Below are positions 6,736-30,411 of a stretch of DNA of 32,785 bases, in pieces (within the stretch, counting starts at the first letter, position 1; the number at the start of each line of letters is the position of its first letter). The translations under genes were made by a program, and so were the position numbers. This DNA comes from an uncultured Myxococcales bacterium (GTDB taxonomy: Bacteria > Myxococcota_A > Polyangia > Polyangiales > Polyangiaceae), in contig CALFNG010000314.1 of assembly GCA_937902985.1 (NCBI GenBank), forward strand, positions 1 to 32,785. The letters run 5' to 3'. The notes below the pieces were generated by a model. It was given only the letters and a program-made list of their open reading frames with translations. It did no database searches and had not been told where the DNA came from.

Positions 6736-6830
6736 CGGGGAAGGGGGCGTGGTTATCGCACGGCGCAGCGGTGGAGACGAACGGCTTCGTGCTAGACGCT
6801 GTGGTAGAGAAAGCGTCCTCAGAGAAAGAC

Positions 6831-7784
6831 ATGGCCGCGACCCCCATCCTCGTGGACGACGTGCTCGAACTCGTCGGGAACACGCCGCTCATCGCGATCG
6901 CGGCGCCCGGTAGCTGGGGCGAGCGGGCTCGCGTCTGGGCGAAGATGGAGCAGTCCAACCCGGCAGGGTCGGTCAAAGATCGCATCAGCCTCGCCATGAT
7001 CGAGGAGGCCGAGCGCGACGGGCGCCTCAAACCGGGGGGGGTCGTGGTCGAGCCCACAAGCGGCAACACCGGCATCGGCCTGGCCCTCGTGTGCTCCGTT
7101 CGCGGGTACCGGTGCATCCTCGCGATGCCCGAGAGCATGAGCCTCGAGCGACGCCAGCTGCTCGAGGCTTTCGGAGCCGAGGTCGTGCTCACTCCCGAGG
7201 ATCAGCAGCTCGAAGGCGCCGTGGCCAAGGCGCGCGAGATCGCCGAGAGCACGCCCGGCGCCTTCATGCCGCAGCAGTTCGACAACGATGCGAACCCGCG
7301 CATCCATGCGGCCACCACGGCGCGCGAGATCCTCGAGGCGATGCGCGGTCTCTCGCTCGACGCCTTCGTCGCGGGCGTCGGGACCGGAGGAACCATCACC
7401 GGCGTCGGCGGCGTCTTGCGGCGGGAAGTGTCTCCGCGGCCGCGCATCGTGGCCGTCGAGCCCGACGCGTGCGCGACCATCTCGCGCGGCGAGCGCGGGC
7501 CGACGAAGATCCAGGGCCTCGCGGCCGGGTTCGTTCCGAAGAACTACCACGCCGACCTGGTCGACGAGGTTCGCACCGTGACAGACGCCGACGCGTGGAA
7601 GATGAAGACGGCGCTCGCCCGCGGCGAGGGCCTGCTCGTCGGCATCAGCGCGGGCGCCGCGGTGCACGTGGCCCTCGAGGTCGCGCGCGAGCTCGGTCCG
7701 GGCAAGAACGTCGTCACGATCCTGCCCGACACGGGCGAGCGCTACTTCAGCCTCGCGGAGTACTTCGGAGACGATACACGGTGA
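6831..7784 (+). CDS. cysK: Cysteine synthase A (O-acetylserine sulfhydrylase)
   Basis: PLP enzyme making cysteine from O-acetylserine and sulfide. PLP-lysine is Lys49 in NPAGSVKDR; the substrate loop TSGNTG is at about 76-81; the phosphate loop is GTGGTITGVGG; the C-terminal GISAG and LPDTGERYFS match the CysK subgroup. I place the start at ATG 6831 (317 residues, family-like). An in-frame ATG at 6771 would add 20 residues without family support. It is first in a run of six same-strand genes, and its stop overlaps the next GTG as GTGA. This gene serves free sulfide, whereas the cysM-type gene downstream probably serves the protein thiocarboxylate. Confidence 0.95.
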   Translation: MAATPILVDDVLELVGNTPLIAIAAPGSWGERARVWAKMEQSNPAGSVKDRISLAMIEEAERDGRLKPGGVVVEPTSGNTGIGLALVCSVRGYRCILAMPESMSLERRQLLEAFGAEVVLTPEDQQLEGAVAKAREIAESTPGAFMPQQFDNDANPRIHAATTAREILEAMRGLSLDAFVAGVGTGGTITGVGGVLRREVSPRPRIVAVEPDACATISRGERGPTKIQGLAAGFVPKNYHADLVDEVRTVTDADAWKMKTALARGEGLLVGISAGAAVHVALEVARELGPGKNVVTILPDTGERYFSLAEYFGDDTR

Positions 7785-8524
7785 AGGTCGACCGAGCGCG
7801 GGCGCGCGTTCTACTCGTCGGCGTCGGGGGGCTCGGTTGCCCGGCCGCCCTGGCGCTGGCCGCCGCGGGCGTCGGGTCGATCGGCCTGTGCGACGACGAC
7901 GAGGTGGAGCTCTCGAATCTCCATCGTCAGATTCTCTTCGGCGCCGCCGACGTGGGCTCGGCGAAGCTCGAGGCGGCGGCGCGGGCGCTGCGCGAACGGT
8001 TCGGGCCGGCGCAGTCGCTCCAGGTGCACTCGACCCGCCTCCTGCCGGACAACGCGGTGTCGCTCGTGCGCGACCACGACGTGGTCCTCGAGGGGAGCGA
8101 CAACTTCGCTACCAAGTTCCTGGCCGCCGACGCGTGCGCGCTCGCGGGCGTTCCGGTCGTTCACGCGTCTGCCGTCCGCTGGGTCGGCACCGCGCTCGCG
8201 GTCGGAGCCGCGGGGCGGCCGTGCTACCGGTGCCTCTTCGAGGACGTGCTTGGCGAGAACGCGCCGAACTGCGCCGAGGCCGGCATCCTCGGGCCCGTCG
8301 CGGGCATCGTGGCCGCCGCGCAGGTCGACCTCGCGCTGGCGCTGCTCGACGGCGAGGCCGTCGAGGGCCGGCTCGTCACCTTCGACGGGCGCACAGACGT
8401 CCTCCGTCGCCGGACCGTCTCGCGGCGCGCCGATTGCCCGTTGTGCGGGCAGCCCGCTGGCGCCCGCGCGCGCATCGATCGCATCGAACCCAACCGCTAT
8501 GTTTCGCCCGCTCTCGCGGGCTGA
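7781..8524 (+). CDS. MoeB/ThiF-type E1-like adenylating enzyme lacking the N-terminal RxxRQ segment
   Basis: It should activate the C-terminal glycine of the neighbouring sulfur carrier as an adenylate. GTG at 7781-7783 overlaps the cysK stop. The 247-residue protein opens almost directly at the nucleotide loop (GVGGLGCP, about residues 14-21), then DDDEVELSNLHRQ, the catalytic aspartate in EGSDN, CYRC and CPLC zinc pairs, and the NCAEAG cysteine. MoeB proteins normally carry about 25 residues before the loop, with RYxRQ giving the arginine finger to the partner subunit. Here they are absent, and no upstream in-frame start exists that does not lie inside cysK. There is no C-terminal rhodanese, unlike mycobacterial MoeZ. 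The missing segment appears on the product of 8814-9233. Confidence 0.93.
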   Translation: MKVDRARARVLLVGVGGLGCPAALALAAAGVGSIGLCDDDEVELSNLHRQILFGAADVGSAKLEAAARALRERFGPAQSLQVHSTRLLPDNAVSLVRDHDVVLEGSDNFATKFLAADACALAGVPVVHASAVRWVGTALAVGAAGRPCYRCLFEDVLGENAPNCAEAGILGPVAGIVAAAQVDLALALLDGEAVEGRLVTFDGRTDVLRRRTVSRRADCPLCGQPAGARARIDRIEPNRYVSPALAG

Positions 8525-8539
8525 GAGGAGAACCGTGAA

Positions 8540-8812
8540 ATGGAAACGATCGTCCGTATCCCGACCCCGCTGCGCACGCTGACCGGCGGGGCCGATGAGG
8601 TGAACGCCAGCGGGGGCACCGTCGGCGACGTCATCGAGGATCTCGAGCGCCGGCACCCCGGCATTCGCGACCGGCTTCTTGACGAGAAGGGCGTCCGTCG
8701 CTTCGTGAACATCTACGTCGGCGAAGAAGACGTCCGCTTCCTCGAGGGCCTGAAGACGGCGCTCAAGCCGGGCGACCAGATCAGCATCGTCCCGGCGATC
8801 GCCGGAGGCTGA
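8540..8812 (+). CDS. cysO: Ubiquitin-like sulfur carrier protein, ThiS/MoaD family, CysO-type
   Basis: A 90-residue beta-grasp protein ending in the diagnostic Gly-Gly (VPAIAGG). Its C-terminus would be adenylated and converted to a thiocarboxylate that donates sulfur for cysteine. Typical elements are VRIPTPLRTLTGG at the start, a DVIEDLERRHPGIRDRL helix and VRFLEGLKTALKPGDQISIVPA. The CysO assignment, rather than MoaD or ThiS, comes from context: E1-like enzyme before it, CysM-type synthase and JAMM peptidase after it, as in the mycobacterial mec-cysO-cysM cluster. A GAGAGGAG Shine-Dalgarno precedes ATG 8540. It ends one base before the next start. Confidence 0.93.
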   Translation: METIVRIPTPLRTLTGGADEVNASGGTVGDVIEDLERRHPGIRDRLLDEKGVRRFVNIYVGEEDVRFLEGLKTALKPGDQISIVPAIAGG

Positions 8813-8813
8813 G

Positions 8814-9233
8814 ATGAGCCGGCACGGTCGTCAGACCCGCCTCGCGGAGGTCGGCTCGGCGGGCCAGGCGCGCATCGCGGCGGCGACGGTCGACGTCGCC
8901 GTAGACGGACTCGCGGCCGAAGTGGCGACCCGTTACCTCGTGGGCGCCGGCGTCGGTTGCGTCCGTGTGCGAGAGCGTGGCCTCGCGGGCTCCGTCAGCC
9001 TCGCGGACATCGCGCGTTCGATCGACCCGGGCGTTCGCGTCGAGGTCGCGGTCGGCTCGGCGCGAGAGGCGGCTCCCGCGGGAGGTGCGGCACCGGGCGC
9101 CCACACCGTTCGCGATGGACTCGACGTGAGCGACTTTCGCGACCCCAGCGCGCGCGCCGTCGCGCGAGGCGCACACGAAGCGCTGCGGGCCCTCCGCACC
9201 GCGCTCGGCTCCGGGCCGGGGGGTGGATCGTGA
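8814..9233 (+). CDS. Degenerate E1-like half protein carrying the RxxRQ arginine-finger segment
   Basis: A 139-residue protein starting one base after the cysO stop, with GGAGG upstream, and overlapping the next gene as GTGA. Residues 3-7 (RHGRQ), then EVGSAGQARI and GLAAEVATRYLVGAGVGCVRV, align with the start of MoeB/ThiF proteins (RYxRQ, GxxGQxxL, the nucleotide loop, then YLxxAGVG). The glycine loop is replaced by VDGLAAE and the SNLxRQ loop is absent, so ATP binding is unlikely. SIDPGVRVEVAVGSA recalls the E1 strand NPxVxVE, and the C-terminal helix AHEALRALRTALG recalls the E1 scaffold helix. I infer a non-catalytic subunit completing the active site of the 7781-8524 enzyme. The family match is from reading only. 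Confidence 0.8.
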   Translation: MSRHGRQTRLAEVGSAGQARIAAATVDVAVDGLAAEVATRYLVGAGVGCVRVRERGLAGSVSLADIARSIDPGVRVEVAVGSAREAAPAGGAAPGAHTVRDGLDVSDFRDPSARAVARGAHEALRALRTALGSGPGGGS

Positions 9234-10183
9234 GTCGGCCCTCAGGGAACGGGGGCCGCCGCCTCGAGTCGGTCATCGACGGGGTCGGCAACACCCCTCT
9301 CGTTCGCCTCCGCAAAGTGACGAGCGACGTGCCCGACGTCGAGGTGTGGGCGAAGCTCGAGTTCGCGAACCCGGGAGGCAGCGTCAAGGACCGGCCGGCG
9401 CTCCGCATGATGCTCGACGCCCTCGCCGACGGCCGCCTGACACGCGACAAAATCCTGATCGACTCGACGAGCGGCAACACCGGGGTCGCGTACTCGATCT
9501 TCGGGGCTGCGCTCGGAATCCGCGTGCGGCTCGTCATGCCGTCGAACGTCAGCAAGGCGCGCAAGGACATCGCCAAGAGCTTCGGGACCGAGATCGTCTT
9601 CAGCGATCCGATGGAGGGCTCCGACGGGGCCATCCGCCTCGCGCGCGAGCTCGTGGCGAAGGACCGCAGCACGTACTTTTATCCCGATCAGTACTCGAAC
9701 CCGTCGAACTGGCGCGCCCACTACGACGGCACGGGGGTCGAGATCCTCGCCGCGCTGGGCGATCGGCTGACGCACTTCGTCGCCGGCCTCGGAACGACGG
9801 GCACGATGATGGGCACGACGCGGCGACTCAAGGAGCACCCTCGACCGATCGAGTGCGTCGCGATCGAGCCGGCCGACGCGCTGCACGGCCTCGAGGGGCT
9901 GAAGCACCTGGCCAGCAGCCTCGTTCCGCCCATCTACGATCCCAAGGTGCCCGATCGCATCCTGCCCATCACCACCGAAGACGGCTGGGACATGGCCGAC
10001 CGGCTCGCCCGAGAAGAAGGCTTGCACGTCGGCCACTCGTCGGGTGCCAACGTCTTCGGCGCCATGCTACTCGCGCGCGAAGCGCAGAAGAGCGGCCGCG
10101 GAGGCTGCGTGGTGGCGATCATCTGCGACCGGGGCGATCGCTACTTCGCCCCGATGAAGTGGGAGCGGCGGTACGTCTGGTGA
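9230..10183 (+). CDS. cysM: CysM-type cysteine synthase (protein-thiocarboxylate dependent)
   Basis: PLP-dependent synthase of 317 residues, GTG start at 9230 overlapping the previous stop. PLP-lysine is Lys53 in NPGGSVKDRPA; TSGNTG at about 80-85; phosphate loop GLGTTGTMMGTTRRL. VAGLGTTGT, the later VPPIYDP, and KDRPA (KDRIS in CysK) resemble mycobacterial CysM, which takes O-phosphoserine and CysO thiocarboxylate. At the position I align with the phosphoserine-reading arginine of mycobacterial CysM there is a lysine (GLKHL); this alignment is from memory. The C-terminus closes with YFAPMKWERRYVW. Adjacency to cysO and mec supports the role. Confidence 0.9.
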   Translation: MSRPSGNGGRRLESVIDGVGNTPLVRLRKVTSDVPDVEVWAKLEFANPGGSVKDRPALRMMLDALADGRLTRDKILIDSTSGNTGVAYSIFGAALGIRVRLVMPSNVSKARKDIAKSFGTEIVFSDPMEGSDGAIRLARELVAKDRSTYFYPDQYSNPSNWRAHYDGTGVEILAALGDRLTHFVAGLGTTGTMMGTTRRLKEHPRPIECVAIEPADALHGLEGLKHLASSLVPPIYDPKVPDRILPITTEDGWDMADRLAREEGLHVGHSSGANVFGAMLLAREAQKSGRGGCVVAIICDRGDRYFAPMKWERRYVW

Positions 10184-19316: not shown

Positions 19317-20258
19317 TCATACGGGGAGCGTCAGGTCTCCGCCATGCTCGACCAGGCTAGCGAACGACGCGATTCGCACGGCCAGGTCAGCGCGGGTGAC
19401 GGCGAGCAGGCGGGAGGGTCCGATTCCTTCGACGCAGAAGCTCCCGAGCGCCGCGGCGAAGAACATCGCCTTGCGGATGATCCCTGGGGATATCTCGCCA
19501 CGCGCAGCCAGGTAGCCCATGAGACCTCCGGCGAACGAGTCTCCCGCGCCGGTGGGATCGAGCACCTCTTCGAGCGGGTAGGCAGGAACGAAGAACGCAC
19601 CCGCGTCATCGAACATCAGCGACCCGAACTCGCCGCGCTTGATGACCAGCATCTTCGGGCCGCGCTTGCGGATGTCCGCGGCGGCGCGCACGAGGTTGTG
19701 GATCCCCGAGAGCTCGCGGGCCTCCTCGTCGTTGATGATGAGCAGGTCGATCCGCCGGAGCACCTCGGCGAGCGCGGCCGGTTCTCCGCTGATCCAGAAG
19801 TTCATCGTGTCGGCCGCGACCAGCTTGGGCCGCTGGACCTGCTCGACGACGTCGACCTGGAGCTTCGGGTGGATGTTCCCGAGCAAGACGAGAGAGCTGG
19901 TCTTGTGCGCGGCCGGAATCTTCGGGGAGAAGTCGGCGAAGACGTTGAGCTGCGTGTCCAGCGTGGTGCGGCTTCCGAGGTCGGACGAGTATCGACCATG
20001 CCAGCGGAAGGTCTGGCCCTGCGCGCGCTCGACCCCGGTCGTGTCGACGCCGCGGCTGCGAAGGCTCGCGAGGTGCGCCTCGGGAAAGTCGGCACCGACG
20101 ACGCCGACCACGCGCGTCCCTGGGCCGGCGACGAGCGACGACGCGAGGGCGGCATAGGTCGCGGCGCCACCGAGCACGTCGCGGTGCTCGCCGGTCGGCA
20201 TGTCGAGGTCGTCGAAGGCGATCGAGCCGACGATGAGGAGGGGATCGGAGCTTTTCAC
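19317..20258 (-). CDS. PfkB-family sugar or nucleoside kinase
   Basis: Ribokinase-fold kinase of 313 residues. The anion-hole/catalytic signature DPTGAGDSFAGG is at about 234-245 with the base Asp240. The N-terminal GSIAFDDLDMPTGEHRDVLGGAATYAAL carries the Gly-Gly substrate motif. The central NDEEARELSG is typical of PfkB members near adenosine kinase and ribokinase. It starts 10 bp after the MTA phosphorylase stop, so they are co-transcribed. This context suggests a purine nucleoside or ribose-derived substrate from methylthioadenosine or adenosine salvage, but the substrate is not shown by sequence. Last gene of the minus-strand run. Confidence 0.9.
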   Translation of the reverse strand: MKSSDPLLIVGSIAFDDLDMPTGEHRDVLGGAATYAALASSLVAGPGTRVVGVVGADFPEAHLASLRSRGVDTTGVERAQGQTFRWHGRYSSDLGSRTTLDTQLNVFADFSPKIPAAHKTSSLVLLGNIHPKLQVDVVEQVQRPKLVAADTMNFWISGEPAALAEVLRRIDLLIINDEEARELSGIHNLVRAAADIRKRGPKMLVIKRGEFGSLMFDDAGAFFVPAYPLEEVLDPTGAGDSFAGGLMGYLAARGEISPGIIRKAMFFAAALGSFCVEGIGPSRLLAVTRADLAVRIASFASLVEHGGDLTLPV

Positions 20259-20268
20259 GGGAGGGGCC

Positions 20269-21141
20269 TCACACGGATGGGATGTACTTGGCGACTAGCC
20301 AGTCGAGCCGGGCGAGGGCCTCCGGCGGAATGCGTTCGCGCGAGGTCACGAGGGCTGCCGAGAGCGCTCCCGTCGCGTGGCTCGTCGACGGATCGGGGAG
20401 CGCGGCGACGAGCTCCCCCACGGTGCGGCGCGCCCTGGCGACATTCTCGCCGAGGACCTTGAGCACGGCCTCGAGGGATACGTCGGCCTCGGCTTCGTGC
20501 CAGCAATCGTAGTCGGTCGAGAGCGCCAGGAGGGCGTAGGGCAGCTCGGCTTCGCGTGCGAGCTTGGCCTCGGGCATCGCGGTCATTCCGATGACCGACA
20601 CGCCCCACGTCCGGTAGAGCCGGCTCTCGGCGCGCGTGGAGAACTGAGGTCCCTCGATGCAGACATACGTTCCGCCGCGGTGCACCCGGGCGCCGGTGCG
20701 CTCCGCGGCCCCGGCGAGGGCGCTCGAAAGGTCGCCGCATACAGGGTCGGCGAAGCCCACGTGAGCGACGATGCCGTTGTCGAAGAACGTCGACGTGCGC
20801 CCCTTCGTCAGGTCGATGAACTGGTCGACGATGACGAAGTCGCCTGGCGCGATGCCCTCTTTCATCGATCCTACGGCGCTCACGCTGACGAGGTGCGTCG
20901 CGCCGAGCTTCTTCAGCGCGCAGACGTTCGCCCGGGAGTCGATGCGGTGCGGGGCGATCCGGTGCCCGCGCCCGTGGCGGGGCAGGAACAGAAGACGGGT
21001 CTCGCCGAGCCGGCCCTCGACGACCTCGTCGCTGGGCGGTCCGTAGGGGGTCTCGACGCGTGTTGCCTTCACGTCGGTGAGGCCGGGAATCTCGTAAAGC
21101 CCACTTCCGCCGATCACCGCGAGCACGTCTTGCGAACCCAT
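20269..21141 (-). CDS. mtnP: S-methyl-5'-thioadenosine phosphorylase
   Basis: Trimeric nucleoside phosphorylase that splits 5'-methylthioadenosine with phosphate into adenine and 5-methylthioribose 1-phosphate, for methionine and purine salvage. Key motifs: GGSGLY at 11-16, the phosphate-binding PRHGRGH at 54-60 followed by PHRIDSRAN, and the substrate motifs CIEGPQFSTRAESR (about 161-174), IGMTAMPEA (about 184-192) and STDYDCW (about 208-214). STDYDCW points to MTA rather than guanosine or inosine substrates. At 290 residues it is normal length. It sits between gmk and the PfkB kinase with gaps of about 10 bp, indicating one operon. Confidence 0.94.
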   Translation of the reverse strand: MGSQDVLAVIGGSGLYEIPGLTDVKATRVETPYGPPSDEVVEGRLGETRLLFLPRHGRGHRIAPHRIDSRANVCALKKLGATHLVSVSAVGSMKEGIAPGDFVIVDQFIDLTKGRTSTFFDNGIVAHVGFADPVCGDLSSALAGAAERTGARVHRGGTYVCIEGPQFSTRAESRLYRTWGVSVIGMTAMPEAKLAREAELPYALLALSTDYDCWHEAEADVSLEAVLKVLGENVARARRTVGELVAALPDPSTSHATGALSAALVTSRERIPPEALARLDWLVAKYIPSV

Positions 21142-21151
21142 CCGAAACCCC

Positions 21152-21784
21152 TTACGCTAGGCGTCCGACGCGGAGAAGCGATTCCGCCAGCGGGGCGCGC
21201 CTCTCGCGGCAAGCCCGCTCGGCGACCACGATCGACCTGAGCTCGTCGAACGCGCGCTGCACCTCTTCGTTCACGACGATGTAGTCGAAGAGCGCGTAGT
21301 GCTCGATCTCGAGCTGGGCCATCGCGAAGCGGCGCTGAACGGCGTCTTCGGTCTCGCTCGCGCGGCCGCGGAGGCGTCGCTCGAGCTCATGCATCGAGGG
21401 GGGCAAGACGAAGACCGCGACGACGTCGGAGACCTTGGATTTGATCTGCCGGGCTCCCTGGTAGTCGATGTCGAAAATCATCCCGCTGCACCCCGGCATC
21501 GCGCGCGCGCGGTCGATCTCGGCGGTCGACGTGCCATAGAGGTTCCCGTGCACCTCGGCCCACTCGAGGAAGGCGCCAGCCGCGACCAGCTCCACGAAGC
21601 GGGCGCGATCGACGAAGTGGTAATCGCGACCGTCGACCTCGTTCGAGCGTGGGGGACGGGTGGTGTGCGAGACGCTGAACAGGAGCTCGGGACAGCGGTC
21701 GAGCAAGAGGCGCGTGAGCGTTGTCTTCCCGGCGCCGCTCGGCGAAGAGAGAATCAGGAGGAGGAAGTCGTCGTACGGGTTCAT
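21152..21784 (-). CDS. gmk: Guanylate kinase
   Basis: Cytoplasmic kinase converting GMP to GDP. The P-loop is SSPSGAGKTT (13-22). Next come the GMP-binding stretch SHTTRPPRSNEVDGRDYHFV (39-58), EWAEVHGNLYGT, the FDIDYQGARQIK motif and the lid RRLRGRASETEDAVQRR. 210 residues is the usual length. Its ATG overlaps the yicC stop as ATGA, a gene order (yicC-gmk) common in many bacteria. In enterics rpoZ and spoT follow gmk; here MTA phosphorylase does, while a RelA/SpoT-like gene lies three genes upstream in the same direction. Confidence 0.96.
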   Translation of the reverse strand: MNPYDDFLLLILSSPSGAGKTTLTRLLLDRCPELLFSVSHTTRPPRSNEVDGRDYHFVDRARFVELVAAGAFLEWAEVHGNLYGTSTAEIDRARAMPGCSGMIFDIDYQGARQIKSKVSDVVAVFVLPPSMHELERRLRGRASETEDAVQRRFAMAQLEIEHYALFDYIVVNEEVQRAFDELRSIVVAERACRERRAPLAESLLRVGRLA

Positions 21785-22653
21785 TCGACGTTTTGAACCT
21801 GTTCTCGCATCCGCTCGATCTCCGCCTTGACCTCGACGATCGCGTGCGAGATGTGCGCGTCCGGGCTCTTGGCGCCCACGGTGTTTGCCTCGCGTGCCAT
21901 CTCTTGCAAGAGAAAATCGAGCCGGCGCCCGATCGCTTCGTCGGTCGCGAGTAACGATCCGAGCTGCGAGCAGTGGCTCTCGAGGCGCGTCAGCTCTTCG
22001 GAGATGTCGCAGCGCTCTGCGAACATCGCGATCTCTTGCTCGAGGCGGTACAGATCGACGTCGAGCTCGGCAGTCACGCGCAGCCGGTCGGCGCGCTCGC
22101 GAAGGCGCTTGCGGTGGGCCTCGAGGACGTCGGGGGATCGACGCTCGATGTCCCGAGCCAGCTGGCGGATGCGCTCGAGCCGGCGCACGAGGTCGCCACC
22201 AAGGGTCAAGCCTTCGCGCGAGCGCATGCCGTCGAGCGCGGAAGTCGCCGCCTCGAAGGCACCGCGCGTGGCTTCGCGAACGAGCTCGATCTCGCGATCG
22301 ACGGACGAGACGAAGAGGTCCGGAATGGCCGCGAGGAGCCCGAGCGGGACCTCGCTCCCGGGGGCAAGCTCGTCACGGAGTTCGGTGAGCGCCTTGAACG
22401 CCGCCCGCGCACGAGCGCGGTCCAGAACGGGGACGCCGAGCGCTGCGCCCTCGACCCGTACCACCACTTCGTAACGGCCGCGGGTGAGCTTTTCCCGGGC
22501 CACTTGCTCGACGAATCCCGCGAGCTCGGCGAGCTCGCGGGGCACGCGCACGCGCACATCGAGGAAGCGGTGGTTGACTCCCCGGATCTCGACGCCGAGC
22601 CTGCCGCTCCCGAGCGGCGCCTCGCCGAGCCCGAAGCCCGTCATGCTTCGCAT
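21781..22653 (-). CDS. yicC: YicC-family endoribonuclease
   Basis: YicC/YloC family protein of 290 residues, a type described as an endoribonuclease acting on RNA. It starts with the hallmark MRSMTGFG and LGVEIRGVNHRFLDVRVRVP. The C-terminal DUF1732 region is also typical, with ELDVDLYRLEQEIAMFAERCDISEELTRLESH and RRLDFLLQEMAREANTVGAKSPD. Overlaps gmk by ATGA, so the two are translationally coupled. About 150 bp separates it from the upstream DUF507 gene, with a strong hairpin in that gap, so it may have its own promoter or respond to attenuation. Confidence 0.95.
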   Translation of the reverse strand: MRSMTGFGLGEAPLGSGRLGVEIRGVNHRFLDVRVRVPRELAELAGFVEQVAREKLTRGRYEVVVRVEGAALGVPVLDRARARAAFKALTELRDELAPGSEVPLGLLAAIPDLFVSSVDREIELVREATRGAFEAATSALDGMRSREGLTLGGDLVRRLERIRQLARDIERRSPDVLEAHRKRLRERADRLRVTAELDVDLYRLEQEIAMFAERCDISEELTRLESHCSQLGSLLATDEAIGRRLDFLLQEMAREANTVGAKSPDAHISHAIVEVKAEIERMREQVQNVE

Positions 22654-22804: not shown

Positions 22805-23314
22805 TCAGAGGCCCTTGCGACGCTTCACTTGTTCGAGCACCCGCGCGTGCTCGATTTCCCACTCCCGCGTCCCCTCGCGTACGTGTTTGAGCTGGGCTCG
22901 CACGTCGGCGTCGAGCGCCGAGTCGGCCGCCATGTGCTTTTTGAACACGACCGCCATTTTGCGGCGGAGCTCGATGTCTTCGACGTAAACTTCATCGACG
23001 TTGCCCGAGTGCATGAGCATTTCGACCACTTGATCGAGCAGGTGGTCGAGGGCGTCGTCGCCGACCTTGATGCCCTTTTCTTCGGCGACCAGCGACCTCA
23101 CGCGATTGAACTCGGTCTGCGGCTTGCCGGTGCGCTCGAGCACCTCTTTGGCGCGGTCGTTCACTTCGCGCTCGTCGACCAGATACTGGTTGAGGACGGC
23201 GGTGATGTCGGCCTCGACCTCTTTCGGATGCTCGGCCTCGATGTCTTTCGAGGTGAGCAAGGCTCGAACGACCTCGGTCGCGATGGCGGAGACTTTACCG
23301 CTGTACAGACGCAT
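22805..23314 (-). CDS. DUF507 family protein
   Basis: A 169-residue, highly charged helical protein starting MRLYSGKVSAIATEVVRALL, which matches the DUF507 family opening. A second region (about residues 85-169: LDHLLDQVVEMLMHSGNVDEVYVEDIELRRKMAVVFKKHM) repeats the pattern, so the protein is close to two family units long. The function of DUF507 is unknown. It lies just after the RelA/SpoT-like gene and before yicC on the same strand. Start at ATG 23312-23314; no membrane segment. Confidence 0.87.
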   Translation of the reverse strand: MRLYSGKVSAIATEVVRALLTSKDIEAEHPKEVEADITAVLNQYLVDEREVNDRAKEVLERTGKPQTEFNRVRSLVAEEKGIKVGDDALDHLLDQVVEMLMHSGNVDEVYVEDIELRRKMAVVFKKHMAADSALDADVRAQLKHVREGTREWEIEHARVLEQVKRRKGL

Positions 23315-23334: not shown

Positions 23335-24474
23335 TTACTTCCTTTTTCGCACGTCGGAAGCGGCAGTTATCGAACCTCCGGACTCGGTCCCCCCCTCGGC
23401 CGCCCCCGAATGGCCACCGAGCTGAAGCCGGCGCATGACGGCCTTCTTCTGCCGATCCTTGTACCGGGCGTGCGACGCGTCGCCGAGCTCGTTGTGGGTG
23501 TCGGTGTCCCGGTCGACGATCTGGAACTCGCAGATGACGAAGATGACGTCGCCGAGCGCAGCCGCGCTGGGCGGGGCATTGTCGAGAATGCGCTTCGGCA
23601 GCCGGACCGGCATGTCGACCACGAGATGGATGATCTTGTAGGACTCGGCCGAGAACAGGTTCCCGCTGGGGGTGAAGCCCTCGGAATCCCGGTCGTCACC
23701 GCCGTGACCTTGCAGGTGGTCGAGCAGGGGGTTGAGAGCGGTCTTCTCGATGTACGAACGGAACCCGAGCACCGAATTGATGCTCTGCCCGGGGACGACG
23801 TAGTTGAAGGGGAAGAGCCGCTTCGACAGGTACTGGAGGATCGGGAAGATGTCGTCGCGGGTGCGGGTGACGACGCGAAACCGCAGTTTGTCGAAGATCT
23901 GGGCCGCGATCGTTTCTTGTTTCGAGAGGAGCTTGGTGACGAGCGAGTCCTTGTTCTTCCTGCCACCCACGAACTCGACGACCGGAAACCCCGCCGCGAG
24001 CATGGCGCCGATGACGCGATAGACCTTCTCTTCGACGATGTGGAAGACCTCCTGGTCAGACATCGGCAAGACGAAGAGCAGCTCTCGCCCGTCGAGGTGA
24101 TGAATGATGTGCATGCACTTCAGGATCGTGCAGGCGCACATCGCACGGTGCCCGCGGCCCGCGGCGACCATCAATAGCTCGGGGACGGTGGCCTTCTCGA
24201 TGGGTCGCGGGATCGGGTAGTTGAACTGCCGCCGCAGGTACGCGATGGCCTCGGTCTTCACGTGCTCCATCCGCTCGCAATCGCTCGGCTCTTCGAGCCG
24301 CAGCTCTTGCGAGAAGAGAAACTCCCGTATCTCGGCGTCGGTGGCGAAGTCGAGCCGGCGCCAGTCGATCACCGAATCGCCGCGCAAGATGAGTCGTATC
24401 GACTGGAGGTCCGCGAGCGTGAACTCGCTCAGCGGCTTCAAACGCTCGGCCCGTGGCTGTTTGACCTCGTTCAT
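23335..24474 (-). CDS. TIGR04552-like protein with RelA/SpoT synthetase motifs
   Basis: I recall this as a myxobacterial family (TIGR04552) of unknown function. The C-terminal 210 residues read like a RelA/SpoT nucleotidyltransferase, motif by motif: GGRKNKDSLVTKLLSK (170-185) for GRxKxxxSxxxK; DKLRFRVV (195-202) for the DxxGxRvv strand; SYKIIHLVV (278-286) for gYrsxHxxv; CEFQIVDRDTDTHNE (315-329) for the catalytic ExQIRTxxMHxxxE; HARYKD (335-340) for the AAHWxYK end. The helical N-terminal 165 residues lack an evident HD hydrolase motif. Start is ATG 24472-24474; an in-frame TTG at 24519 would add 15 residues. The C-terminus is a disordered, basic tail. Enzyme activity is inferred only. Confidence 0.85.
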   Translation of the reverse strand: MNEVKQPRAERLKPLSEFTLADLQSIRLILRGDSVIDWRRLDFATDAEIREFLFSQELRLEEPSDCERMEHVKTEAIAYLRRQFNYPIPRPIEKATVPELLMVAAGRGHRAMCACTILKCMHIIHHLDGRELLFVLPMSDQEVFHIVEEKVYRVIGAMLAAGFPVVEFVGGRKNKDSLVTKLLSKQETIAAQIFDKLRFRVVTRTRDDIFPILQYLSKRLFPFNYVVPGQSINSVLGFRSYIEKTALNPLLDHLQGHGGDDRDSEGFTPSGNLFSAESYKIIHLVVDMPVRLPKRILDNAPPSAAALGDVIFVICEFQIVDRDTDTHNELGDASHARYKDRQKKAVMRRLQLGGHSGAAEGGTESGGSITAASDVRKRK

Positions 24475-28375: not shown

Positions 28376-29758
28376 TCAATCGTCGTCCGGGTCCGCGCCG
28401 CGCAGGCCATGCTTCTTGGCCATGTCGTGCAGGTGTTTGCGGTCCATCTTGGCGTCCCGGGAGGCCGCGCTCACGTTGCCGCCGTGCCGCCCGAGCAGCC
28501 ACTTCACGTAGCGTCGCTCGAACTCGCCGTCGTATTTGGCGCGAGTCTCCCGGTACGTCTTGCCCTGCTCGAACTGAAAGACGTCGCCGCCACCCGCGCC
28601 GGACGTCGGGAGGGATACGAGGCTCAGCTCGGCCTGGCCCGTCGCCTGGGCCATGTAAAGCGCGCGGTCGAGCACGTTCCTCAGCTCGCGCACGTTCCCC
28701 GGCCAGTCGTGCGCGAGCAGACCCTGCATGCTCTCGTCGCTCACCTGAACGGGTACGGCCCCCGTCGAGCCTGCCTTGAGGATGTACTCCACCAGTGCAG
28801 GAATGTCTTCACGCCGCCCCCGCAGCGGTGGCACTGTGATGGGGACCACGGCCAACCGAAAGTACAGGTCTTCCCGGAACTTGCCGGCCTGAACTTCACG
28901 TTGCAGGTTGCGTTTCGTGGCCGCCAGCACGCGCACGTTGGTCTTGAGGGTTCGATTGCCGCCAACCCGGCGAAACTCTTTGGTCTCGAGCACCCTGAGC
29001 AGCTTCGGTTGTACGTCGAGCGGCAGCTCGCCGATCTCGTCGAGGAACACGGTGCCGCCGTCGGCCATCTCGAAGGCGCCCTGCCGGGCAGCGACCGCCC
29101 CCGTGAACGCCCCCCGCTCGTGCCCGAATAGCTCGCTCTCGAGGAGCGAGTAGCTCACCGCGCCGCAATCGACGACCACGAAGGGGCCCTGCGCGCGGGG
29201 GCTCTCGGTCCAGATCGCTCGGGCGAGCACGTCTTTGCCGGTGCCGGTCTCGCCTTCGAGCAAGACGGTCGCATCGGTCGGAGCGATGCGCTCGAGGATT
29301 CCGAAGATGCTGCGCATCGCGAGGCTCTGACCAATGGCGCCGCCGAACCAGGTCTTGTCGCTGGGCATCACCTCGACGCTGCGTACCGCCAGACGGACGG
29401 CGATCTCGATCTCGCCGACCTTGAGCACGACGCCCGGCTGAACGACGGCCTCGGTCACGCGTGCGCCCTGGAGCTTCGTGCCGTTGGTGGAGCCGAGATC
29501 TCGAACGTGCACGCCGTCGGCCGCGCGCGTGAGCTCGCAGTGATGACGCGAGACGGTGTCATCGGGAAGCACGAGGTCGTTGTCGGGCGCCTTGCCGATA
29601 CGAAGCCGATCGCCGATGCGACGGCTGGTGCCCTTGGCGCTGCCGGACATGACGACGATCTGGATGCCGACGCTCGACTCCCTCGCCTGGAGGGCGCGCG
29701 TGGCGACCTCCGGTCTCTCGACTTCCATGTCCGAGCTGTCGTCGTCCGGCTGCGTCAT
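28376..29758 (-). CDS. Sigma-54 activator with N-terminal FHA domain
   Basis: Cytoplasmic transcription activator of a type abundant in myxobacteria. Domains: FHA at about 48-120 ([28 protein letters not shown]), binding phosphothreonine and so linking to Ser/Thr kinases; AAA+ at about 138-380 with Walker A GETGTGKD (169-176), GAFTGA (216-221, contacts sigma-54), Walker [12 protein letters not shown], and [17 protein letters not shown]; Fis-type helix-turn-helix near the end ([21 protein letters not shown]). The longest frame starts far upstream, but ATG 29756-29758 (460 residues) is where protein-like sequence begins. Reading continues in frame beyond its stop. Target promoters are not apparent. 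Confidence 0.94.
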
Positions 29759-29886
29759 GCGCTCCCTCGGCCAGCTGTGGAGCTTACCTCGGCCGCTGGG
29801 CCTTCGCTCTTTTCCTCGTGCATGGGGTCCGAGCTCGCCGGGGTCGTTCCGGCGACATCTTCGACGTCGGCACGCGTCATGCCGCG

Positions 29887-30411
29887 TCAACGGGCCTTCA
29901 GTGTGCGAATTCGCGAGACCAGGCCCGCGACGACGGGATCCGGAAGGTTGAAGGCGGGCATGCGGTTTCTGCCCATCTTGATGACCGTGGCCATCTCGCC
30001 GTTGGTGGTCTTTCCCTGCCAGTCGGCGAGGGTCAGGTCCGGAGCCTGCACCATGGGCCCCATCTGGCCGTCGCCACGCCCCGTCGGGCCGTGGCAGGTC
30101 GTGCACTGCTGGCGCCACGTCAGCTCGACGAGCTGTTTCACCTCGGCCGCCGCCGCCCCTCCGCTCGGGTCTCGTTCGCGCTGCACGCCGTTCGGAGCCG
30201 TTGCCGGAGCCTGCGCGCCCATCGCGAGGCGGTTGTCGTCATTCGAGTGATGATCCGACTGCGTCCACTCCGGCAGCGAGTCGGCCGACGGCGGTCGGTC
30301 GCACGCGGCCGCCGCAGTAACGATGAACGCAAGAGCGACACTGCGGCCGATCGACGCGAGAGGCGTTGTCGCGAGCGAGCGAGGCGAAAGCGAAGAAAGA
30401 CCTGCGTTCAT
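29887..30411 (-). CDS. Lipoprotein c-type cytochrome
   Basis: A 174-residue lipoprotein: signal peptide [14 protein letters not shown] with the lipobox cysteine at residue 37, a polar linker to about 90, then a single cytochrome c domain with CTTCH (Cys103, Cys106, His107) and the probable distal methionine Met151 in GRNRMPAFN. It resembles class I mono-haem domains of electron-transfer lipoproteins or oxidase partners. Start is ATG 30409-30411, chosen because it gives the signal peptide; the longer frame extends into upstream DNA without family support. Divergent from panB; 128 bp ahead of the activator gene on the same strand. Confidence 0.9.

Follow-up and report, generated by a model that had tools for sequence, protein, structure and literature searches.

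RelA/SpoT enzymes make ppGpp, the molecule with which bacteria signal starvation. Other proteins related to these enzymes include the toxSAS, whose genes are located in toxin-antitoxin modules, and CapRel and FaRel2, which pyrophosphorylate the 3'-CCA ends of tRNAs. A survey of RelA/SpoT proteins from 2011 distinguished 12 groups of small synthetases and named neither TIGR04552 nor TIGR04562 (PMC3153485), two unnamed and uncharacterized NCBIfam families without a stated function. The ligand contacts of the small synthetase SaRelP provide a reference for the active site: K80, S84 and K88 bind the ATP phosphates, D107 and E174 the Mg ion, R112 stacks on the adenine, H190 contacts the ribose and Y151 the acceptor base (PMC5794853).

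The literature that we searched contains no functional description of either family, and an account in a subscription-only journal or a preprint is possible. TIGR04562 is not named there at all, and TIGR04552 is named only in a study in which the gene DOE51_RS08710 of Bdellovibrio sp. NC01 had acquired a one-base deletion (a frameshift) at a frequency above 75% in line B, one of six predator lines that had been evolved (PMC9888234). This suggests that the TIGR04552 gene can be dispensable in that Bdellovibrio, the mechanism not being addressed by the deletion, and it hints that the gene was selected against in coculture.

Here, we report on a member of these families encoded by an uncultured Myxococcales bacterium on a stretch of DNA of 32,785 nucleotides (contig CALFNG010000314.1; hereafter the window). 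The features of the locus are as follows.

23335..24474, minus strand: TIGR04552/TIGR04562 family gene encoding a SYNTH-fold protein of 379 amino acids; both NCBIfam scores far over the cut-off
24061..24438, minus strand: N-terminal all-helical domain, residues 13-138; helices predicted, no HD match
23428..24060, minus strand: RelA/SpoT-like SYNTH (pyrophosphokinase) domain, residues 139-349, supported by the model, structure matches and hhalign
23932..23958, minus strand: ATP-phosphate motif K173xxxS177xxxK181 (149/149), equivalent to SaRelP K80, S84 and K88
23875..23892, minus strand: DKLRFR, with D195 (Mg) and R200 (adenine-stacking Arg), 149/149; spacing of 5 as in Rel
23641..23814, minus strand: segment of the enlarged acceptor loop (residues 221-278); N233 invariant, N272 nearly so
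23638..23640, minus strand: Y279, position of the acceptor-base-stacking Tyr; Tyr or Phe in 148/149
23512..23529, minus strand: E316xQ318xxD321; catalytic Glu kept, IRT Arg lost, Thr replaced by Asp; 149/149 for E, Q and D
23458..23472, minus strand: H335xxY338K339, ribose-contact His and YK; E-to-H spacing of 19
22805..23314, minus strand: DUF507 gene, next downstream after a gap of 20 bases; a conserved neighbour in Polyangiales only
19317..22653, minus strand: YicC, guanylate kinase, MTA phosphorylase and PfkB genes; order conserved in about half of the loci

Homology to RelA/SpoT synthetases

The original prediction, made from the DNA letters, had called the protein TIGR04552-like and had seen in it the motif series of RelA/SpoT synthetases. 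Both statements hold. The protein scores 338.1 bits against TIGR04552 (cut-off 125) and 328.2 bits against TIGR04562 (cut-off 140), and the quoted motifs (GGRKNKDSLVTK, DKLRFRVV, SYKIIHLVV, CEFQIVDRDTDTHNE and HARYK) are all found in its translation. Scanned alone against Pfam RelA_SpoT, it reaches 26.7 bits (E 7e-6), which is 0.3 bits short of the gathering score of 27. Its homologues, each likewise scanned alone, match this Pfam family in 77 of 79 cases among close relatives (54-79% identity) and in 28 of 30 among diverse relatives (down to 21% identity); the best E-value of any member is 9.9e-9, and several members exceed the cut-off over profile positions 4-112. Pfam scans would nevertheless miss the family, because most of its members score near or below that cut-off.

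When the family profile was compared with all PDB sequences, the Rel protein of S. equisimilis (1vj7; E 4e-4) and YwaC (6fgk) came out on top. An hhalign comparison with a 361-column profile of the catalytic half of Rel from myxobacteria gave a score of 63.2 over residues 152-341 with all motifs in register, whereas 60 column-shuffled profiles scored at most 23.5 and the reversed profile 21.4. Undisputed small synthetases of related genomes score 65.4 against the same Rel profile, and the family is thus about as close to Rel as these accepted enzymes are.

An AlphaFold2 model built from a 79-member alignment (pLDDT 78.9, pTM 0.77; loops 190-194 and 257-274 poorly predicted) leads to the same fold. 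Foldseek searches of the PDB with this model list RelP (6ex0; E 3e-5), RelQ and Rel first. On realignment with VIA-align, every one of the first 28 PDB entries is a RelA/SpoT synthetase domain (Z from 9.6 down to 5.7) that matches model residues of about 139-345; these are followed, at Z 5.7 and below, by Pol lambda/beta, representatives of the wider nucleotidyltransferase fold. The best structural match is a moderate one (Z 9.6, rmsd 3.4 Å). Profile and structure comparison, the check proposed with the original prediction, hence both return the SYNTH fold and no other. Fold, homology and invariance of the core are, in this sense, computationally established for this SYNTH-like protein.

The family shares with the long Rel/RelA/SpoT enzymes the fold (24io, Z 9.6; 1vj7, Z 9.5), the KxxxSxxxK motif, the D-5-R spacing, the acceptor Tyr, the ExQ motif, and the E-19-H and GxxxHxxYK spacing. 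It differs from them in having an N-domain of its own instead of HD, TGS and ACT domains, for none of which a Pfam match was obtained among the family members scanned. RelP/SAS2 and RelQ/SAS1 are the best Foldseek matches, and they have the ATP/Mg ligands and the absence of a hydrolase domain in common with the family; in contrast to them, it has an E-to-H spacing of 19 rather than 16 and an extra N-domain of about 135 residues.

The N-terminal domain contains the invariant C115 and the nearly invariant D37, H122 and H126. This part of the protein has no Pfam match in the window protein or in the 79 close relatives scanned. Modelled alone (pLDDT 70, pTM 0.58), it finds no significant counterpart in the PDB (best Foldseek E 2.0, best VIA Z 4.7). 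An origin from an HD domain was considered and set aside, as no HD protein was among the PDB matches listed, a result still compatible with very distant kinship. We infer that the helical domain senses or regulates.

The catalytic core and the acceptor site

Conservation was counted over 149 family members, down to about 21% identity, and positions were related to those of SaRelP by motif order, spacing and profile alignment. Fourteen residues are invariant in 149/149: K173, S177, K181, D195, R200, N233, E316, Q318, D321, Y338, Q342, R349, C115 and L118. The retention of the catalytic aspartate and glutamate in homologues, named beforehand as decisive for the original prediction, is accordingly complete (D195 and E316). 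Position 335 is His in 143/149 members, and position 279 is Tyr in 130 and Phe in 18. The spacings are constant or nearly so, with K-D 22, D-R 5 and E-H 19 in the family and 21, 5 and 19 in Rel, whereas five SAS of related genomes have an E-to-H spacing of 16. The first adenine-stacking Arg (SaRelP R78, at K-2) is out of register; 128/149 members have an Arg at K-1. The original prediction had also drawn attention to a histidine and a glutamate after ExQI ('THNE'). Only the glutamate stands up to comparison: E329, kept in 126/149 members, occupies the E+13 position of Rel, and G331 that of E+15, whereas H327 is not conserved and is not the counterpart of the Rel His.

The acceptor side of the active site departs from the known enzymes. 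The arginine of ExQIRT, noted beforehand to be a valine in the window protein, has been lost family-wide, position 320 being hydrophobic or aromatic in at least 148/149 members, and the threonine that follows it is replaced by the invariant D321. The distance from R200 to Y279 amounts to 67-95 residues in the family versus 38-41 in Rel and SAS, so that the acceptor-loop segment is longer by 28-55 residues; between Y279 and E316, too, the family usually has more residues.

The exchange of Gly for Arg in DxxGxR, which the original prediction had likewise taken as a sign of a changed substrate, is found in the 129 TIGR04552-type members only; the other 20 keep Gly at this position (198), where the long Rel encoded by the window's genome has Ala. 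In a motif-block tree the R198 and G198 sets each form one clade, and the exchange is therefore a subfamily trait, which makes it a weak argument for a changed substrate because the other subfamily retains Gly. The family as a whole is one clade in this tree, modestly supported (0.82) and separate from SAS; the tree, which is based on 73 columns and includes few outgroups, does not resolve the position of the family relative to Rel and SAS.

Guanosine-dependent enzymes carry AVR/SxH/IR and the adenosine-type Apk2 carries RYT, GxN and YH in their signature motifs, and swaps of these syn motifs failed to turn Apk2 into a (p)ppGpp synthetase (PMC12226406); substitutions in such motifs are therefore poor predictors of the acceptor. 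The window protein has RFR, IxH and IV and thus departs from the guanosine signature (syn2 A/G-x-R, syn3 SxH, syn4 IR), which is retained in parts only, and this among the TIGR04562-type members. An Arg in the syn2 position is shared with the RYT of Apk2 (PMC12226406). These signatures fit neither the guanosine nor the adenosine type cleanly. The lost arginine and the enlarged loop agree with a substrate other than GTP/GDP, as had been suspected, and they fall short of proof.

Distribution and gene neighbourhood

The gene is present in 181 of the 192 genomes of the class, nearly always in a single copy; in the phylum as a whole, 119 of 189 genomes have it. Searches outside the Myxococcota covered 14 control genomes, plasmids, phages and viral contigs; the family was not found in the 14 control genomes at the thresholds used, and the plasmids and viral contigs searched yielded no relatives. 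This distribution and the literature search support the earlier view of a family typical of Myxococcota without an assigned function. The sole 'phage' match is a protein of 24% identity (L143) in the record MW495066.1, 'Microcystis phage MaAM05' (274 kb; 116976-129861), where the neighbouring genes secDF, secF, glyS, mtgA and gatD look bacterial-chromosomal; the record may be mislabelled. A role as a defence or phage protein was rejected in view of the lack of PADLOC and PHROGs matches, the lack of relatives in the plasmids and viral contigs searched, and the resemblance of this one record to a piece of a bacterial chromosome.

The family shares the SYNTH fold and altered specificity motifs with toxSAS, CapRel, Tas1/Apk1, Apk2 and the exported alarmone synthetases. 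Unlike these, it is a single-copy core gene for which no toxin-antitoxin, secretion or phage context was seen. The patchy, mobile distribution of the toxSAS type is not what is found here, and the gene does not look like a component of a toxin-antitoxin system.

Downstream of the gene in the window lies a nucleotide-flavoured run of genes for the YicC endoribonuclease, guanylate kinase, MTA phosphorylase and PfkB kinase, preceded by DUF507. DUF507 is found at 46/80 loci and guanylate kinase at 43/80, mainly in Polyangiales; at 41 divergent loci, whose flanks were covered over up to 3 kb (for one locus, 5 kb), the genes downstream in the window did not turn up. The DUF507-YicC-Gmk-MTAP-PfkB order was dismissed as a universal operon partner, and because it holds only in Polyangiales, it is no functional proof. 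Crude gene calling in the G+C-rich loci produced shadow ORFs, and its result was set aside. Elsewhere in the window, a ThiF-family gene is positioned between two PLP-dependent (PALP) enzymes (6771-10183, plus strand); the ThiF part of the ORF 7091-8524 is at residues 237-450, which probably puts the actual start of the gene near 7800. An FHA-domain sigma-54 activator, of a type common in myxobacterial signalling, is encoded at 28376-30118 (minus strand).

The genome of the window also contains a complete Rel in a frame of 886 codons, which carries the only HD_4 hydrolase domain of the genome, and a SAS-like frame. The latter (L032; G000:C438:12995-13396; 46 bits) has no obvious in-frame KxxxSxxxK and may be divergent or frameshifted. 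Three genomes of the Polyangiaceae family (G196, G199 and G112) encode second long RSHs (L190, L191 and L192, respectively) with an intact HD motif (LLHDVVEDT) and damaged synthetase motifs, e.g., DLMSFQV, DLVAFHV and DITSFTV, and LEIRIRT; these proteins look, from their motifs, like hydrolase-only long RSHs.

Function and biological meaning

We infer catalytic activity, acceptor and biological role of the family from these data, and the most economical reading, in our view, is that the family forms a new subgroup within the RelA/SpoT superfamily, a predicted ATP:nucleotide 3'-pyrophosphokinase with a private regulatory domain. At a probability of about 0.68, we are dealing with a catalytically active, Mg-dependent 3'-pyrophosphokinase with SYNTH fold and changed acceptor recognition that operates beside Rel and is not a toxin of a toxin-antitoxin system. 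ATP would be bound by K173, S177, K181, R200 and H335, Mg would be placed by D195 and E316, and the acceptor, its base stacked on Y279, would receive the beta-gamma pyrophosphate of ATP at its 3'-hydroxyl. The lost IRT arginine, the invariant D321 and the long loop with its invariant N233 would direct the enzyme to a different acceptor, most likely another purine nucleotide, either in place of GDP/GTP or alongside them. Such a protein would be a housekeeping signalling enzyme of the Myxococcota, working beside a normal Rel. Its product is probably a pyrophosphate-tagged nucleotide or RNA, because the SYNTH fold and the catalytic residues are retained, yet the acceptor site is rebuilt and the N-domain is its own.

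The main competing explanation, which we consider unlikely, is a second (p)ppGpp synthetase, a divergent SAS with GDP/GTP as the acceptor in which the changes only retune regulation. The conserved core and stacking Tyr/Phe would suit such an enzyme, as would the DxxGxR motif of the TIGR04562-type members, which often also keep the Ser of the guanosine-recognizing SxH signature, and the guanylate kinase nearby in Polyangiales. It is at odds with the family-wide loss of the IRT arginine, the invariant Asp in place of Thr, the 28-55 additional loop residues, and the Rel and SAS-like genes that the genome already possesses.

Two further explanations are less likely than a plain (p)ppGpp synthetase. 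The protein might be a pseudoenzyme that retains the SYNTH fold as a sensor binding ATP or an alarmone, with the strongly conserved N-domain as a potential output part and with the equivalents of R78 and the IRT arginine gone; a pure binder, however, would not need both metal ligands and the Lys/Ser/Lys contacts that are invariant in 149 members, which makes this improbable. Pyrophosphorylation of RNA, e.g., of tRNA 3'-CCA ends, with the N-domain and the long loop holding the RNA, is quite improbable as well: the enlarged acceptor side, the extra domain and the presence of CapRel among the structural matches (weak, Z 5.8-5.9) speak for it, whereas the single-copy core status of the gene, for which no family-wide partner was found and no PADLOC match obtained, and a residue spacing that is Rel-like rather than SAS-like speak against it. 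A chance resemblance of motifs in an unrelated fold can be dismissed for practical purposes, since the Pfam matches of the homologues, the PDB profile search, the structure comparisons and hhalign with its shuffled controls all indicate SYNTH, although the window protein alone scores slightly under the Pfam cut-off.

If the 3'-pyrophosphokinase reading is correct and the enzyme active, an alarmone-type synthetase that has so far gone uncounted would be present in almost all members of an entire myxobacterial class. We put forward only tentatively, as a possible rather than a probable extension, that this core signalling enzyme of Myxococcota (and, by annotation, of Bdellovibrio) has a sensory N-domain of its own, forms a pyrophosphorylated compound distinct from (p)ppGpp and constitutes a second alarmone system beside Rel. 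The family also offers a set of naturally varied acceptor sites built on an unchanging catalytic core, which would be of use in working out how such enzymes choose between G, A or RNA. The starvation response of myxobacteria governs predation and multicellular development, and the tentative proposal, if true, would mean that these predatory and multicellular bacteria possess a second, unrecognized alarmone system.
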